From a virus, in the IMG/VR virus record IMGVR_UViG_3300031721_000034, positions 1-28,404 of that record: a stretch of DNA of 28,404 nt. One strand, given 5' to 3'. Under the pieces are notes generated by a model. The model was given only the letters and a program-made list of their open reading frames with translations. It had not been told where the DNA came from and did no database searches. Made by a program: the position numbers and the translations under genes. Of the stretch, positions 660 to 25,725 are shown one piece after another. Each line of letters begins with the position of its first letter. Position 1 is the first letter of the stretch.

Positions 660-931
660 TGTTAGGTTATAAAGAGTTCATGTTAAAGAGAATAAAAGAA
701 GAAGAAAGTAGTATGGTTGACCATCCTGCACACTACAATGCGTCAAGCATAGAGACTATAGATATTATAGCTTCTATAACTGGCGATGGTTTTGAATCTT
801 ACTTACAAGGAAACATCCTTAAGTATTTAGCTAGGTATAAATACAAGAATGGTGTAGAAGATTTAGAAAAAGCAAAATGGTATTTAAATAAACTAATTGA
901 GACAGTAGGAGAAGACGAAGATGGCATCTAA
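659..931 (+). CDS. DUF3310 family protein
   Basis: This 90-residue protein carries the two DUF3310 signatures: DHPAHYN at residues 21-27, then SIETIDII, and GNILKYLARYKYKNG at 51-65 followed by DLEKAKWYLNKLIE. DUF3310 is common in tailed phages of many hosts. It is often labelled nucleotide kinase because a related region occurs in T7 gp1.7, but this short form has no P-loop and its activity is not established. The start at 659 is supported by TAATG overlap with the upstream gene. An internal Met19 just before the motif is an alternative. The 3' end overlaps the RNR start by 11 bases, so it is coupled to dNTP synthesis, which fits a nucleotide-metabolism role by context only. Confidence 0.88.
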   Translation: MLGYKEFMLKRIKEEESSMVDHPAHYNASSIETIDIIASITGDGFESYLQGNILKYLARYKYKNGVEDLEKAKWYLNKLIETVGEDEDGI

Positions 932-2849
932 TATGTTACCAACTTCTTATCAGGAGTTCATACACAAGTCTAGGTATGCACGTTGGTTAGAAGCAGAAGG
1001 AAGAAGAGAGAACTGGGGCGAGACAGTTGGCAGATATGTAAACTTCATGGAGAAGTCTTTACTTGATAAGCACAACTACAAGCTAGACAAAGTTGATAAA
1101 GAGATGATGGAAGAATACATCACAGGTCTTAGAGTTATGCCATCCATGAGAGCTATGATGACTGCAGGGGAAGCCCTTGAAAGAGATAACACGTGTGGAT
1201 ATAACTGTAGCTATTTGCCAGTTGATAGTCCAAGATCATTTGATGAAGCTATGTACATACTTATGTGTGGAACTGGTGTGGGATTTAGTGTGGAACGTGA
1301 GAACGTAGACAAGCTACCTATCATCAGCGAGAACATGCAGAAGTCTGACGTTGTGATTTCAGTAGAAGATAGTAAGGCAGGGTGGGCAAAAGCCTACAGA
1401 GAGTTAGTAGCTTTGTTGTACTCAGGTATGATACCATCGTGGGATGTGTCTAAGGTTAGACCTGCTGGTGCAAAGTTAAAAATTATGGGTGGTCGTGCAT
1501 CAGGTGCTGATCCTCTCGTTAACTTATTTAAGTTTACCATAGAGAAGTTTCAAAGTGCTAAGGGAAGAAAGCTATTTCCTATTGAGTGTCACGACCTTAT
1601 GTGTAAGGTAGGAGAAGTTGTAGTTGTAGGTGGTGTCAGACGATCTGCTCTAATCAGCTTATCTAATCTTAATGATGATCAGATGGCACACGCTAAAACT
1701 GGTCAATGGTGGGAGAATGAAGGACAAAGAGCCTTAGCAAACAACTCTGTATCTTACAAGGGCAAGCCTAGTATGGAAACGTACATGAGAGAATGGTTAG
1801 CTTTGTATGAATCTAAGTCAGGTGAACGAGGTATGTTTAATAGACAGGCTGCAGATGATCAGGTAGCTAAGAATGGTAGACGACAAACAGGTCACATGTG
1901 GGGAACTAATCCTTGCAGTGAGATAATACTCAGACCTTACCAATTCTGTAACCTATCTGAAGTTGTTGTCAGAGAGACTGATGACCTAATGGAACTACGA
2001 TCTAAGGTTAGGATTGCTACCATGTTAGGTACATTCCAATCAACTCTCACAGATTTAAAGTACCTGCGAAAGATATGGAAAACAAACACTGAAGAGGAAA
2101 GATTGTTAGGTGTGTCACTCACGGGGATCATGGATCATCCTGTGTTAGCTAGACACGTTGACTCTAAGATATGGCTACAAGAAATGAAGCAAGTAGCAGT
2201 GGATACAAACAAGGAGTATGCAGATAAGATAGGGATACCAAGAAGCACAGCTATCACATGTGTAAAACCAAGTGGTACTGTATCTCAGTTGACTGACTCT
2301 GCATCAGGTATTCATGCCAGACACAATCCGTTTTATATCAGAACTGTACGTGGTGATAACAAAGACCCACTAACACAGTTTATGAAGGAAGAGGGAATAC
2401 CCTTTGAGCCTGATATCACAAAACCTGATAGTGTTACTGTCTTCTCGTTTCCTATGAAATCTCCTAGTGGTGCTATCACTAGAACTGAGATGAGTGCAAT
2501 AGAGCAACTTGAGTTGTGGAAAATCTATGCACTTAACTGGTGTGAACACAAACCGTCTGTGACTATTTCTGTGAAGGAAGAGGAATGGATGGAGGTGGGT
2601 ACTTGGTTGTATGATAATTTTGATATCGCTTCTGGCATATCGTTCTTACCATTCTCCGATCATACCTACCAACAAGCACCGTACCAAGACATAGAGTCTG
2701 AAGATTATCTGGAGTGGAAGGGTCGTGTACCTGCTTCACTTGACTGGGATAAGTTTTCACTGTATGAAAAGGAAGACAATACGAGTGGTTCTCGTGAGTT
2801 GGCTTGTACTGCAGATGCCTGCGAAGTTGTAGACTTGAGTTCAAGCTAA
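921..2849 (+). CDS. class II (adenosylcobalamin-dependent) ribonucleotide reductase
   Basis: This 642-residue single-chain reductase converts ribonucleotides to deoxyribonucleotides for phage DNA synthesis, using a thiyl radical generated with coenzyme B12. Visible catalytic features fit the monomeric Lactobacillus leichmannii type: Asn330, radical Cys332 and Glu334 in the motif NPCSEI; Cys343 eleven residues after Cys332 in FCNLSE; the partner Cys96 in the N-terminal NTCGYNCSY; and the C-terminal shuttle pair Cys629/Cys634 (CTADAC, the same C-x4-C spacing as the model enzyme). KPSGTVSQLTDSASGIHARH at 449-468 is a phosphate/substrate-loop type motif. No separate small subunit gene or ATP-cone is seen, as expected for class II. 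The length is shorter than the bacterial enzyme (about 740) but usual for phage versions. An AGGAG lies about 12 bases before the ATG. It sits between DUF3310 and a nuclease-like gene, overlapping both. Confidence 0.93.
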   Translation: MASNMLPTSYQEFIHKSRYARWLEAEGRRENWGETVGRYVNFMEKSLLDKHNYKLDKVDKEMMEEYITGLRVMPSMRAMMTAGEALERDNTCGYNCSYLPVDSPRSFDEAMYILMCGTGVGFSVERENVDKLPIISENMQKSDVVISVEDSKAGWAKAYRELVALLYSGMIPSWDVSKVRPAGAKLKIMGGRASGADPLVNLFKFTIEKFQSAKGRKLFPIECHDLMCKVGEVVVVGGVRRSALISLSNLNDDQMAHAKTGQWWENEGQRALANNSVSYKGKPSMETYMREWLALYESKSGERGMFNRQAADDQVAKNGRRQTGHMWGTNPCSEIILRPYQFCNLSEVVVRETDDLMELRSKVRIATMLGTFQSTLTDLKYLRKIWKTNTEEERLLGVSLTGIMDHPVLARHVDSKIWLQEMKQVAVDTNKEYADKIGIPRSTAITCVKPSGTVSQLTDSASGIHARHNPFYIRTVRGDNKDPLTQFMKEEGIPFEPDITKPDSVTVFSFPMKSPSGAITRTEMSAIEQLELWKIYALNWCEHKPSVTISVKEEEWMEVGTWLYDNFDIASGISFLPFSDHTYQQAPYQDIESEDYLEWKGRVPASLDWDKFSLYEKEDNTSGSRELACTADACEVVDLSSS

Positions 2850-15656: not shown

Positions 15657-16649
15657 TTATGCTACTAAATATCCTGAAAAATGTGTGTAGTGGATACTTC
15701 CAATAATGTCTGTTTGTGCAGTACCAGCATTTTGGTTTATAATAATATTTGCTGTATCAGAAGCATCCATATCTGCAAATATTGAATAGGATACAGAATA
15801 ATAAACTAAATCAGCAGTAAACTTAGGGGCAAATATATAATCATATGACCTATTACTTGTATTAATATTTATTGAGTAAAAATTAGCTGCTGTGTCAAGG
15901 GCCCCTAATCTCATTGAAATATTAAAAAAATATCTACCAGTAACTGGTGCTACAAATCTATTATTGCCTAAATCAAAGTCTGCGTTTTGGTCGAAGTGTT
16001 CAGCCGCCCACACTACAGTTTCTCCACCAATAGCTACGTTAGATTGGTCTGTGTTATTTTTAGTGGCATGAAAAGCAGGTTGTAGTGGTTTGGTTATAAT
16101 ACCAGCTGCATCAAACCTCATAGAGTCTGTTGTTCCAAGAGTGCCACCTAAACCTATAACTAAGCTATCATTGGTATCATCCACTCCTATATGATAATCT
16201 TGAGCATTGCCATCAAATACAATCTTTGCATCTTCTGCTCCAGCATCACCAATAGTAAGAGTTGGAGTTGTACCACCTAAAGTTATAGGACTAATCACAT
16301 TACCTGTTACACTAAGAGTACCACCTATTCCTATGTTACCACCAAATGAACCACCACTTCCTGCACTTACTGTGTCAGCTACGGAGAATACATCAAAGGC
16401 TATTATTTCAACTACGTCATCAGCCGATGCACCCTGTACTAAAACTACAGATGTTCCTGTTGTTGATGCGTAATCATCTACTGCTTTTAACTTTACACCA
16501 TTTTGATAGACATCAAGATATGCAACGTCTACATAGACAAGGCTGATGTTATTTTCATCATTGCCACTAAAGCTAGTTTGATTAGCTGTAGCTACATAAA
16601 CAAATCGTCTACGCACTCCATTTGAAGGGGATGTTCCTATATATGCCAT
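15657..16649 (-). CDS. tail fibre protein with C-terminal C1q-like domain (copy B)
   Basis: This encodes 330 residues. The N-terminus MAYIG is shared with the 335-aa paralogue at 17829-18836. Residues about 35-90 form a beta domain (YLDVYQNGVKLKAVDDYAST) common at the base of phage fibres. Residues 95-185 are Gly/Thr-rich shaft repeats (GGNIGIGGTLSVTGN). From GIITKPLQPAF at 183-193 the rest reads as a C1q/TNF-type jelly roll: NRFVAPVTGRYFFNISM is the diagnostic Phe-x-Ala-Pro-x-x-Gly-x-Tyr strand. C1q-like tips are trimeric and bind ligands at their outer face. The protein is likely a host-recognition tip. No enzyme motif is present. It lies seven bases upstream-to-stop from the 91-aa helper gene before it and 16 bases from the 352-aa gene after it. 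Confidence 0.8.
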   Translation of the reverse strand: MAYIGTSPSNGVRRRFVYVATANQTSFSGNDENNISLVYVDVAYLDVYQNGVKLKAVDDYASTTGTSVVLVQGASADDVVEIIAFDVFSVADTVSAGSGGSFGGNIGIGGTLSVTGNVISPITLGGTTPTLTIGDAGAEDAKIVFDGNAQDYHIGVDDTNDSLVIGLGGTLGTTDSMRFDAAGIITKPLQPAFHATKNNTDQSNVAIGGETVVWAAEHFDQNADFDLGNNRFVAPVTGRYFFNISMRLGALDTAANFYSININTSNRSYDYIFAPKFTADLVYYSVSYSIFADMDASDTANIIINQNAGTAQTDIIGSIHYTHFSGYLVA

Positions 16650-16940: not shown

Positions 16941-17477
16941 CTATGCCAATCGGCAACCTCCCCATTTACTATGTCCTTTATAATAATCTGATGCTGTTGC
17001 AGCACAAACTGCTATGGTATCTCCACTTGCTAAAGGAATAATGTGTGTTGCTGTGTGAACATGGTCATTGTCAAAATCATCAAAAAAACTCGCAAATTCA
17101 CTGGATGAATTACCAAAATTAACTTTTGCTGAGTTTTTTAAAAAGCCAAAACCATTGGTAGCATCATTCTGTGCCGAATAAATAGAAAACCAAAACATAT
17201 AAACACCTGCTGCAGGAGCAGTAAATTTATAGGTTGATGTGTTATAACAACTATCTGTATCAAAACTATCACCAGTAGAATCGTCAGCAAATTGAACAAT
17301 AACACCATCCGAAATTGCAGCCCACGCATCAGCATTTCCTCTAGCTGAAAAAGCATTAGTGCCACTTACTGTTCCACTTACAGTTCCTGTCAAAGCATAG
17401 TCATCATCTAGTTTTAATATGGTATTGTCTACAGCATCTAGTGCAAGTCCACCTGTTAATACTTTTGTTAATGCCAT
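16941..17477 (-). CDS. stand-alone C1q-like tail tip protein
   Basis: This encodes 178 residues. A short N-terminal segment (MALTKVLTGGLALDAVDNT) resembles the fibre-attachment start of many phage tip proteins. It is followed by a Thr/Gly linker (TGTVSGTVSGT) and, from residue 41 (NAFSARGN), a C1q-like jelly roll to the C-terminus: TYKFTAPAAGVYMFWFSIYS carries the Phe-x-Ala-Pro-x-x-Gly-x-Tyr signature, with later strands ATHIIPLASGDTIAV. The shaft region present in the two longer C1q proteins is absent, so this is a minimal version. There are three Cys in the jelly roll. AGGGAG lies just before the ATG. It is probably a receptor-binding tip that assembles on a fibre base. Confidence in the C1q fold is moderate to good. 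Confidence 0.78.
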   Translation of the reverse strand: MALTKVLTGGLALDAVDNTILKLDDDYALTGTVSGTVSGTNAFSARGNADAWAAISDGVIVQFADDSTGDSFDTDSCYNTSTYKFTAPAAGVYMFWFSIYSAQNDATNGFGFLKNSAKVNFGNSSSEFASFFDDFDNDHVHTATHIIPLASGDTIAVCAATASDYYKGHSKWGGCRLA

Positions 17478-17828: not shown

Positions 17829-18836
17829 CTATCCTAATAAATAGCCCATGAATATTGAGTTTGTAGGTATATCAGCCTGAGCTGTTCCACCACCTTGACT
17901 AAATCTGACGATTGCTGTGTCACCAGCATCCATATTATTAGTAACACCTATATTTGCAGGATAATAGTTTAAGTCAGCACTAAAGTTAGGGTCTATAAGG
18001 TCATAAAAAGTTCTATTTGAAGTTTTAATATCAAGCTGAATAAAAGTGGCTGCACTATCAACATTCTGAATGTATGTGGAAAAACCTAAAAAATATATGC
18101 CTGCTACAGGAGCAGTAAATGTATTACTAGCAAAGTTTGCTCCTACATCATATCTTTCTGTGCCAAATACCACAGTCGTTGTAGCAACAGCCATATTTGC
18201 TTGTTCAGAAGATGGTTGCACTAAAAAAGCAGGTTGTCTTGGCTTGGTGATTATGCCATTGACATCCATCTGCATTGTTAAAATATTGTTGTTAAAAAAG
18301 GTCATTATCTCATTGTTTTGCTCGTAACTAATCTGACCCTTTCTTGAGTTAGCAGCATCGCCTGCGGCTGTGTCAGCAAAGAATATTGAACCTTTATCAC
18401 CAGCATTACTCCCAGTAAAAATTGTTATACCATTATCGCCACTACCAGTTCCTACAATTAAATTATTAGCTACAGGGTCAAAGTCAGTATTGGTTGTACC
18501 AATAGTAGTATTACCTGTAAACGTACCTGTTGTTGCAGTCAATCCTTGTGTGCTTGGATGTCCTACAGTTCCTGCTTGAGATGCTAAGTAATACACAAAT
18601 ATATTATTACCTGAGTTTGTACTAGGAGCAGCACTAAATGTTAATGTTGTTCCACTACTAACTGCATAACCTACTGATGGCTCTTGAACTACACCATCAA
18701 CAGATACGAGTACGTCTTCATCTTGGGTTACAACTTGCTCTAAGGTAAATGCTACAGTAGAACCATCACCCGAATAAACAGATGCAGCTCTATTAGACAC
18801 AAACCTACTAGCAGCAGTATTACCTATATATGCCAT
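17829..18836 (-). CDS. tail fibre protein with C-terminal C1q-like domain (copy A)
   Basis: This encodes 335 residues and is paralogous to the 330-aa protein at 15657-16649. It has the same MAYIG start. The N-terminal beta domain at 28-85 (AFTLEQVVTQDEDVLVSVDG, then GYAVSSGTTLTFSAAPS) is the type that begins many phage fibres. A Gly/Thr-rich shaft at about 90-190 follows, then GIITKPRQPAF at 194-204 and a C1q-like jelly roll (NTFTAPVAGIYFLGFSTY). The junction GIITKPxQPAF and pairs such as TSNRTFYDLIDPNFSADLNY versus TSNRSYDYIFAPKFTADLVY show recent enough duplication to align by eye. It likely forms a trimeric host-recognition tip. The two copies differ most in the shaft and in surface loops. 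Confidence 0.8.
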   Translation of the reverse strand: MAYIGNTAASRFVSNRAASVYSGDGSTVAFTLEQVVTQDEDVLVSVDGVVQEPSVGYAVSSGTTLTFSAAPSTNSGNNIFVYYLASQAGTVGHPSTQGLTATTGTFTGNTTIGTTNTDFDPVANNLIVGTGSGDNGITIFTGSNAGDKGSIFFADTAAGDAANSRKGQISYEQNNEIMTFFNNNILTMQMDVNGIITKPRQPAFLVQPSSEQANMAVATTTVVFGTERYDVGANFASNTFTAPVAGIYFLGFSTYIQNVDSAATFIQLDIKTSNRTFYDLIDPNFSADLNYYPANIGVTNNMDAGDTAIVRFSQGGGTAQADIPTNSIFMGYLLG

Positions 18837-24101: not shown

Positions 24102-24209
24102 TTATTTAGTTAACTTTTTAAAAGCTTCTTTTATTTCTTCTATCGATCTGTTACACCCGACACAGATATTATTGTTATCTAACTTACAGACACCTACGCA
24201 GGGACTCAC
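24102..24209 (-). CDS. DUF1289-like Cys4 microprotein
   Basis: This encodes 35 residues from a GTG that overlaps the stop of the 246-aa gene as GTGA. The sequence SPCVGVCKL, then NNICVGCNRSIEEI closely follows the DUF1289 pattern (SPCIxVCxLD...CxGCxRTxxEI). Cys4, Cys8, Cys16 and Cys19 are positioned to bind one zinc or form two disulfides. The basic helix at the end (KEAFKKLTK) resembles bacterial members, which are short conserved proteins of unknown function. It is the last gene before the internal promoter. A phage copy may be a regulator or a metal-binding accessory, by inference. Confidence 0.75.
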   Translation of the reverse strand: MSPCVGVCKLDNNNICVGCNRSIEEIKEAFKKLTK

Positions 24210-24946
24210 TTAGCAATACTTCTCAAACTATCCATAACATCGTCTATTGATGGCTCTTTAGAATTAGGGTTGTGTATACATTTATACTGCTTAGGGCAAC
24301 CTATCCTGATGTCAGTAAATTCCATCTCGAAAGTTTTGTTTGCACCTTCGTATATGCAAGCCATCTTATCTTTCCATACTTTTTGCGACTTTAATCGGCA
24401 AGTAACATAAACTGGTTTAACGATTAACTTCTGCCACAACTTCTGTTGATCAGTCCAATCTTTAGAATGTGACTGTTTAGAAAGCACCCCTACTAATAGT
24501 AATAAGAATCCACCTATCACAAGAACTAGAAATAACCATCCTATTCCTTCGCCTATCTGTTTTCTAAGGGCTTGTTGTTTATAGATAGTTCGTTGTCTTT
24601 CTTTTCTAATTTCACCTTCCATCTGAAGGAGTTCATCGTAGGCATTAGGTCCTATAGTCAAATTCAAATACATCTTTAGTTCATAACGTTGTTCTTCTAG
24701 TTTCTTCTTAGCAGAGTAAGCTTGTAAAGCCATTGTCTCAATGCTCCCTGCACCGAAGATTTGACTAAACACTCCCGGATTCTTTGCTTGCTTCTCTGCA
24801 TTGTCCACATCTGAAGCTGCTCCCATCCAGCGACCTATGTCACCCGACATTTGTTCCAAATCACGACCCATTGCAAAGCCCGACTTAATTGCACTAAAAG
24901 CTTTTCCAGCTACCCCTACAGCAATGCTGATGGTTAATGGGTCCAT
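24206..24946 (-). CDS. membrane protein of the lysis region with Cys-containing C-terminal domain
   Basis: This encodes 246 residues. The N-terminus (MDPLTISIAVGVAGKAFSAI) and a helical stretch to 130, with basic EIRKERQRTIYKQQALRK, precede one strong TM at about 134-154 (GWLFLVLVIGGFLLLLVGVL). The C-terminal 90 residues carry Cys183, Cys197, Cys217 and Cys223 (CRLKSQKVWKDKMACIYEG, RIGCPKQYKCIHNPNS). If the basic pre-TM segment stays inside, the Cys domain would be periplasmic and could form two disulfides. Proteins with this layout are frequent in marine phages near lysozymes. I know of no proven function, and a spanin-like or superinfection-exclusion role is only a hypothesis. It starts in overlap with the 60-aa gene (TAATG) after AAGGA, and ends in overlap with the DUF1289-like gene. 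Confidence 0.75.
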   Translation of the reverse strand: MDPLTISIAVGVAGKAFSAIKSGFAMGRDLEQMSGDIGRWMGAASDVDNAEKQAKNPGVFSQIFGAGSIETMALQAYSAKKKLEEQRYELKMYLNLTIGPNAYDELLQMEGEIRKERQRTIYKQQALRKQIGEGIGWLFLVLVIGGFLLLLVGVLSKQSHSKDWTDQQKLWQKLIVKPVYVTCRLKSQKVWKDKMACIYEGANKTFEMEFTDIRIGCPKQYKCIHNPNSKEPSIDDVMDSLRSIAK

Positions 24947-25128
24947 TAGTTTTTCCTTACTGGTTTACAATACGCTGTTATTTGTAAATTAGGTCCTTGT
25001 TTTTGTGGGACAGAAGGTTGTCTGTGTAATCTCTCTGCAAAGTATAAGCAACGATCTATGTCGTTAAAGGTTTGTGTTTGGTCTATAACTCGTAATCCCA
25101 TCATAAATACAAGTACAAACTCAACCAT
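24946..25128 (-). CDS. 60-aa protein with hydrophobic N-terminus
   Basis: This encodes 60 residues: a short hydrophobic start (MVEFVLVFMMGL), then a polar region with DIDRCLYFAERLHRQ and QITAYCKPVRKN. Two Cys (27 and 54) could pair. The N-terminus is short for a TM, but could act as a signal anchor placing the rest in the periplasm. Its stop overlaps the start of the 246-aa gene, so the two are likely made together, as are i-spanin/o-spanin pairs. I recall small proteins with this FAERL...C pattern beside the 246-aa type in other marine phages, with no known function. It lacks the lipobox of an o-spanin. Confidence 0.68.
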   Translation of the reverse strand: MVEFVLVFMMGLRVIDQTQTFNDIDRCLYFAERLHRQPSVPQKQGPNLQITAYCKPVRKN

Positions 25129-25132
25129 TCAC

Positions 25133-25243
25133 TTACACAGGTACTCCTTTTACCTCTTCTTCTTTGTGGCAAGTGCAAGTACATTCTTCGCAATCACACT
25201 CATAACATGTGCAAGTGTCACACCTTTTCTTTTCTTCGGTCAT
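25133..25243 (-). CDS. 36-aa Cys-rich microprotein
   Basis: This short frame overlaps the lysozyme stop as ATGA and ends four bases before the 60-aa gene. It encodes 36 residues, eight of them Cys, all within residues 8-25 (CDTCTCYECDCEECTCTC), flanked by charged ends (MTEEKKR and HKEEEVKGVPV). A run of alternating CxC units is typical of metallothionein-like metal clusters. Disulfide-rich peptides usually have wider and more varied spacing. No signal peptide is visible. Acidic residues in the cluster and a His after it would help metal binding. No family is recognised. Coding support comes from the exact overlap, the GGGGAG site about eight bases ahead, and tight fit between neighbours. Confidence 0.65.
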   Translation of the reverse strand: MTEEKKRCDTCTCYECDCEECTCTCHKEEEVKGVPV

Positions 25244-25725
25244 AGCCACTCCCCATTTTTCATTGCTAAGGATAGCTTCATAGCTCTGCCTTTTACTTGG
25301 TCTGCCCACCTAGAATCAATCATCTCTTCACAAGCTGAGATGTAATTTACTTTTTCTATGGCTAACCACATATCCTTAAATTTCATTAATCTTGGAACAC
25401 CCATATTAAATGCCATGTCTATAAGTACCATTTGTCTTACAGCATTTACCTGATTTACTATTGGCTTGTTGGCAAGGAGTTCTTTTTCTACGATGGCTAT
25501 GTCATTCATACAAAGATAATACGCTTCTTCTTCTGTAAGACCCACTTCGTATATTTCTTCTGTGGTCTTATTCATGTAGGATAGCTCACCGTCTGTGATA
25601 CCCCTGTCTTCAAGATTACGACCAATTCCCACTGTATCTATGCCTAAGTGGTCTTGGTAGACGTTAAGTCGTAGACCTTCATGTAAAGCAATCATCTTGA
25701 CTAGTTCATCAGCATCGTATTTCAT
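25240..25725 (-). CDS. T4-type lysozyme (endolysin, GH24)
   Basis: This encodes 161 residues that hydrolyse the peptidoglycan glycan chain to lyse the host. The catalytic triad fits T4 lysozyme exactly: Glu16 in LHEGLRL, Asp25 in VYQDHLG and Thr31 in DTVGIG, spaced nine and six residues, as Glu11, Asp20 and Thr26 in T4. The second lobe has AVRQMVLIDMAFNMGVPRL and SRWADQVKGRA. The length matches T4 (164). There is no signal peptide or signal-anchor, so release needs the holin found four genes upstream. AAGG lies before the ATG, and the stop overlaps the Cys-rich microprotein. Confidence in the activity is high from the motif. Confidence 0.93.
   Translation of the reverse strand: MKYDADELVKMIALHEGLRLNVYQDHLGIDTVGIGRNLEDRGITDGELSYMNKTTEEIYEVGLTEEEAYYLCMNDIAIVEKELLANKPIVNQVNAVRQMVLIDMAFNMGVPRLMKFKDMWLAIEKVNYISACEEMIDSRWADQVKGRAMKLSLAMKNGEWL

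Follow-up and report, generated by a model that had tools for sequence, protein, structure and literature searches.

The question raised by this locus is whether a reading frame of 36 codons, lying between a lysozyme gene and the next gene of a marine virus, encodes a protein, and if it does, whether the dense array of cysteines in that protein serves to hold metal, as an earlier note on this DNA had supposed, or plays some other role. The window, i.e. the whole stretch of DNA that was analysed, is a 28,404-base virus contig. The closest matches to its capsid fragment are the pelagiphages HTVC033P, HTVC103P, HTVC104P and HTVC115P together with Roseobacter phage CRP-345, all at less than 60% identity, and the closest match to its lysozyme is that of Puniceispirillum phage HMO-2011, at 57%. 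Because of these capsid and lysozyme matches, the record can be called HMO-2011-related and assigned to a marine podovirus that has not been cultured, with the microprotein gene in its late operon. A ribonucleotide reductase gene is present on the opposite strand (921-2849, plus strand; phrog_367, E=3e-180), and a region matching phrog_15750 is common to three ORFs that stand beside tail-fibre matches (15657-16649, 16941-17477 and 17829-18836, minus strand) and are probably duplicated tail-fibre modules.

The frame extends from 25133 to 25243 on the minus strand and encodes MTEEKKRCDTCTCYECDCEECTCTCHKEEEVKGVPV, a protein of 36 amino acids followed by a stop. The pattern that had drawn attention to it is present in the translation: eight Cys within 18 residues (positions 8, 11, 13, 16, 18, 21, 23 and 25), arranged in CxC and CxxC steps with the overall spacing CxxCxCxxCxCxxCxCxC, and then a His at position 26. 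Residues 8-26 make up a 19-residue core, C-D-T-C-T-C-Y-E-C-D-C-E-E-C-T-C-T-C-H (25166-25222, minus strand), which is delimited on the basis of the 35 distinct DNA cores described below, and no membrane or secretion signal was seen by eye in the microprotein. The close fit of the frame between its neighbours also holds up. The upstream neighbour, a 161-aa phage lysozyme (25240-25725, minus strand; Pfam PF00959, E=1e-9; PHROG 7, endolysin), ends in TGG CTA TGA, and the ATG of the microprotein gene sits inside this end to give an ATGA overlap; on the 3' side the stop codon ends at 25133 and the ATG of the next gene lies at 25128, which leaves a gap of 4 nt. A Shine-Dalgarno-like GGGGAG read from the sequence within the lysozyme 3' end (25249-25254, minus strand), 5 nt 5' of the ATG, is a putative ribosome-binding site for the microprotein, and the gene layout as a whole is a translationally coupled arrangement with the neighbours. 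A segment with eight Cys in 18 amino acids occurs once in the window, where the next best has six, and when the window was simulated 300 times under a first-order Markov model, only one run attained this density in any of the six frames; chance is excluded far more firmly by the conservation of the frame in relatives.

This conservation was evaluated in a set of relatives composed of IMG/VR contigs picked by their lysozyme alone and not by the Cys motif, from which the best 80 of 108 were taken. The Cys-rich frame is present in 70 of the 80 virus contigs and missing in six (L055, L056, L057, L060, L063 and L064), and the other four (L046, L066, L067 and L068) end before the site of the gene. 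The 70 carriers reduce to 35 distinct DNA cores and 19 protein cores. Numbered along the core, positions C1, C4, C6, Y7, C9, C14, C16, C18 and H19 show no replacement among the 35 distinct DNA cores (the Tyr is thus kept in 35/35), and T3 is unchanged in 35/35 as well, while the codons used at the invariant positions vary (TGT/TGC, TAC/TAT and CAC/CAT). For the seven Cys, the Tyr and the His, there are 0 replacements against 1918 synonymous differences summed over all pairs. The check by low dN/dS that the earlier note had proposed is borne out by a pN/pS of 0.11-0.15: pooled across all pairs the ratio is 0.15, and for 17 disjoint nearest pairs it is 0.115. The expectation of conserved Cys spacing stands for seven Cys and the His, which are invariant, and fails for the eighth Cys, at core position 11 (residue 18 of the window protein), which is often lost in relatives and kept in only 28 of the 35 DNA cores. 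This loss is sometimes offset by a new Cys flanking the core (L008, L052). The invariant set therefore consists of seven Cys and a His plus a Thr and a Tyr, neither of which had been flagged in the note. Nearly all of the core positions besides the ligands, the Thr and the Tyr vary freely among acidic or polar residues, and the N-terminus preceding the core is rich in Lys and Arg in most family members.

Judged by these codon comparisons, purifying selection acts at the protein level and is concentrated on the putative ligand residues, and the frame at 25133-25243 (minus strand) is a real protein-coding gene, of a size often skipped by gene callers as the note had supposed, which is strongly conserved in many uncultured ocean phages. 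The contrary case, in which the frame encodes no functional protein and is kept open through RNA or overlapping-gene constraints alone, can appeal to the fact that the 3' end of the gene bears signals belonging to the next gene. It is scarcely credible given the abundant synonymous changes and absent replacements at ligand residues, the position of the core outside the lysozyme overlap, and the existence of clean empty sites, and the codon comparison can be taken to have refuted it for practical purposes.

The signals at the 3' end bear on how the tail of the peptide should be interpreted. Immediately downstream lies a gene for a 60-aa protein with a hydrophobic N-terminus (24946-25128, minus strand), which occurs within 4 kb in 125 of the 134 motif loci introduced below and has no match among phage records. 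In many relatives the microprotein ends in GVPV or GAPV, written in the DNA as GGAG(T/C)ACC(T/A)GT, so that a GGAG falls 7-11 nt before the GTG or ATG of the next gene, and a tail of the form KGND or KGDD overlaps that gene's ATG. The spacing varies across 98 distinct junctions and the site is poorly placed in some of them, including that of the window, where the distance from GGAG to ATG was read by eye as 15 nt. The possibility that the conserved tail is a docking motif was considered and rejected, since in many junctions GVPV/GAPV and KGND encode the ribosome-binding site or start codon of the next gene; conservation of the tail is thus, at least partly, a translation signal. The long HHNDRVSTDLHDR tail found in some rows appears by eye to be the coding sequence of the next gene read in another frame, and in rows with this tail the automated junction scan did not recognise the start of the next gene. 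In the loci L069-L080 a long tail of the Cys gene seems, again by eye, to read across the beginning of the 60-aa gene in a different frame, as a long overlap. Because the tails vary and follow the start of the next gene, it is the Cys core that selection on the peptide keeps.

The distribution of the core was mapped with the family motif C-x-T-C-x-C-Y-x-C-x4-C-x-C-x-C-H. The degenerate form C-[DE]-T-C-x-C-Y-[DE]-C gives at least 120 matches in viral_contigs, with translations that clearly represent one family, and the general motif is found in at least 184 virus loci, at least 134 of which are distinct after the removal of near-identical neighbourhoods. The gene is single copy in nine of nine large contigs. 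A direct profile search places it in none of 13 relatives that are in culture or carry a name (HMO-2011, HTVC033P, HTVC103P, HTVC104P, HTVC115P, six Roseobacter CRP phages, phage C72C1 and Limnohabitans phage DC31), 12 of which have no match and one of which has a match at E=0.56 that contains an internal stop and was taken as chance. When loci are instead anchored on the 246-aa gene described below, with at least 400 bp of upstream sequence (n=72), the motif is present in 25 and missing in 47, and in lysozyme-bearing loci that lack the Cys gene, the lysozyme stop abuts the start of the 60-aa gene, leaving a clean empty site. Four state changes of the Cys gene are counted on a 97-row tree of a 130-aa neighbour. 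On this distribution it is an accessory gene, stable within lineages and dispensable for the lineage at large. The general Cys/Tyr/His pattern matched five genome contigs among 84,980 prokaryote species; these were rejected as cellular relatives, being poly-Cys, His-rich, Arg-rich or two-codon frames with no ORF that resembles the family. A cellular source of the gene is accordingly not evident from a search that could miss a diverged cellular relative because it required the exact pattern, and within the collections searched the family is found solely in viruses.

The neighbourhood of the gene is conserved to differing degrees. The earlier note had singled out the lysozyme as the companion of the peptide, and this adjacency turns out not to be fixed: an extra small gene intervenes in several loci, and an ORF of the lysozyme cluster lies within 4 kb in 118 of the 134 motif loci, as against 125 for the 60-aa gene. 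The loci with such a further small gene between lysozyme and Cys gene include L032, L043, L051 and L053. Next in the operon is a 246-aa protein with a hydrophobic segment (24206-24946, minus strand), whose single-linkage cluster has a member in 129 of the 134 motif loci and whose N-terminal half finds matches in Roseobacter phages, CRP-9 among them. It is followed by the second Cys microprotein of the operon, a 35-aa DUF1289 protein (24102-24209, minus strand; Pfam PF06945, E=1.8e-12); phage DUF1289 is the subject of PMC8451122. In addition, a direct tblastn scan detects a NifU-like ORF in 13 of 278 sequences (e.g. L192, L115 and L120), so that some related phages have this Fe-S scaffold type of protein encoded near the Cys gene; one such ORF matches PF01106 at E=1.7e-24.

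These neighbours lead to a different assignment of the conserved Cys, which would fit Fe-S roles as well: the peptide may handle iron or Fe-S clusters together with the DUF1289 microprotein and, in those relatives that encode one, with a NifU-like scaffold of the phage. Profile searches of 151 deduplicated loci with enough flank, partly chosen by the Cys motif, find both the Cys gene and DUF1289 in 72, the Cys gene only in 40, DUF1289 only in five and neither in 34. On the 97-row tree DUF1289 undergoes 13 state changes, against four for the Cys gene, and only two supported independent contrasts are available, so that this association and common ancestry cannot be told apart. DUF1289 is also present in three Roseobacter phages, all without the Cys gene. 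NifU is found in none of 22 full records, of which nine have the Cys gene, nor is it encoded in the window. Given the motif-chosen loci and the two supported contrasts, no functional link between the Cys gene and DUF1289 is claimed, and an iron or Fe-S role is improbable. A metal module made up of Cys peptide, DUF1289 and NifU was likewise set aside: its raw co-occurrence looks striking, the independent tree contrasts are too few, and it is retained as a lead only.

The peptide very probably binds metal ions in one way or another. The reading preferred here, to which about an even chance is given, is that the gene encodes a virus-specific, metallothionein-like metal-thiolate microprotein which would act late in infection, holding metal either for buffering or for phage proteins. 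A small cytosolic peptide without a predicted fold of its own would fold around two or three d10 metal ions, namely Zn(II) or possibly Cu(I), with the seven invariant Cys and the one invariant His as ligands, usually joined by the eighth Cys; with eight or nine ligands, there would be room for two or three Zn(II). The metal would be held in thiolate clusters in the manner of metallothioneins, late in infection, in order to buffer metal freed in the dying host or to keep it available for phage proteins, and the metal-loaded form would also make a defined contact through the invariant Thr and Tyr. The invariance of these two residues suggests a specific partner or fold, since a plain metal buffer would not need such a contact, and the location of the gene among those for lysis and structure points to late expression. 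That metal is bound is what we infer, and likewise the stoichiometry, the timing and the purpose. AlphaFold2, run on 27 sequences, gives a pLDDT of 56 and no secondary structure; such a low-confidence model is as expected of an apo metal-thiolate peptide, and equally of any badly modelled one. Held more tentatively, at somewhat less than even probability, is the proposal that the peptide represents a new virus-specific metallothionein-like family, encoded by a single-copy late gene of many uncultured marine podoviruses, that would take over host zinc or copper late in infection or load phage proteins, e.g. DUF1289.

Alternatively, two Zn(II), with the seven Cys and the His as their ligands, might produce a tiny rigid knuckle from which the Thr and Tyr engage a single specific protein of the host or the phage, for instance a transcription, lysis or assembly factor, so that the peptide would be a metal-dependent adaptor. 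The number of invariant ligands, eight, is what two tetrahedral Zn sites call for, the N-terminus preceding the core is rich in Lys and Arg in most members, and the Cys are equalled in their invariance by Thr, Tyr and His. Patterns that require a residue other than Tyr at core position 7, or one other than His behind the last Cys, each give 0 matches in viral_contigs, although both also fix other residues and could miss more diverged forms. The adaptor is nevertheless rather unlikely, because no fold is predicted and because nearly all of the non-ligand positions besides Thr and Tyr vary freely, so that few residues are left to build an interface. A thiol redox or disulfide-exchange peptide, in which the Cys would form reversible disulfides rather than act as ligands and would shift the thiol balance late in infection, is highly improbable: the CxxC and CxC steps could form disulfides and the gene is located in the late lysis and structure region, but no signal peptide or thioredoxin-like fold is seen, and an invariant His with an odd number (seven) of strict Cys suits metal ligation better than paired disulfides.

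Whichever role is correct, a conserved and unannotated gene family is added to ocean phages, of the kind that gene-calling size limits tend to hide. If metal binding is true, then phages encode metal-buffering peptides of their own, a finding that would matter for the way viruses deal with trace metals that are scarce in the sea, and the sharply defined set of invariant residues makes the metal idea directly testable with a 36-residue peptide.

The supposition that the peptide had not been described before is consistent with the family searches, which yield no annotated family at the cut-offs used: there are 0 families for the microprotein in Pfam or PHROGs at E<=10, in NCBIfam at E<=0.01 and in PADLOC at E<=0.1, and its profile matches 0 of 177,635 PDB chain sequences at E<=10. 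A blastn search with the 141-bp region returns chance-level matches only (best E 0.4). A tblastn search of phage records with the peptide of one relative gives no match, a weak result because the BLAST low-complexity filter can mask a Cys-rich query. No report of a phage or viral metallothionein was found in the open-access literature searched, and in PMC11323111, on phage small proteins, the main text mentions neither metal, zinc nor cysteine.

The description of the peptide as metallothionein-like holds for its form, a short and Cys-dense chain with CxC and CxxC steps, and not for homology to known metallothioneins, given the Pfam result and the absence of any match to PF02069 (bacterial metallothionein) at E<=10 in the record itself, in a search whose control picks out Synechococcus elongatus from four genomes. 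The sequence comparisons thus do not support placing the peptide in a known metallothionein family, and the resemblance is one of outline. Metallothioneins have little or no aromatic residues, bacterial members being the exceptions, and invariant Thr and Tyr or dense Asp and Glu between the Cys are not known to be typical of them. The phage family shares the class trait of a short chain with very high Cys content as CxC and CxxC (8 Cys in 36 aa, conserved) and departs from the trait of little or no aromatic content, with its Tyr in all 35 cores.

Three known systems provide the closest points of reference. The DUF1289 protein (PF06945) is also a tiny Cys protein, is encoded about 1 kb downstream, and is carried along with the Cys gene by many relatives, but it has another motif and matches a named Pfam family, whereas the Cys microprotein matches none. 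SmtA/BmtA (PF02069) is likewise small and Cys-rich, with CxC and CxxC steps, His, and presumably a cytosolic metal-thiolate cluster. SmtA has about 56 aa, a zinc-finger-like fold and several His; the phage peptide, in contrast, has no sequence match to this group, is 36 aa long with a single His, combines a densely acidic core with an invariant Thr and Tyr, and occurs in viruses only, in the collections searched. Short metallothionein domains are known from fungi and animals, as in the Neurospora Cu-metallothionein and the mammalian beta domain, M3Cys9. Here the likeness would be in cluster size, in that eight Cys and one His would provide nine possible ligands, close to those of the three-metal beta domain, whereas the phage peptide is set apart from these domains by the lack of a Pfam match, its acidic linkers, its invariant Tyr and its place in a phage late operon.
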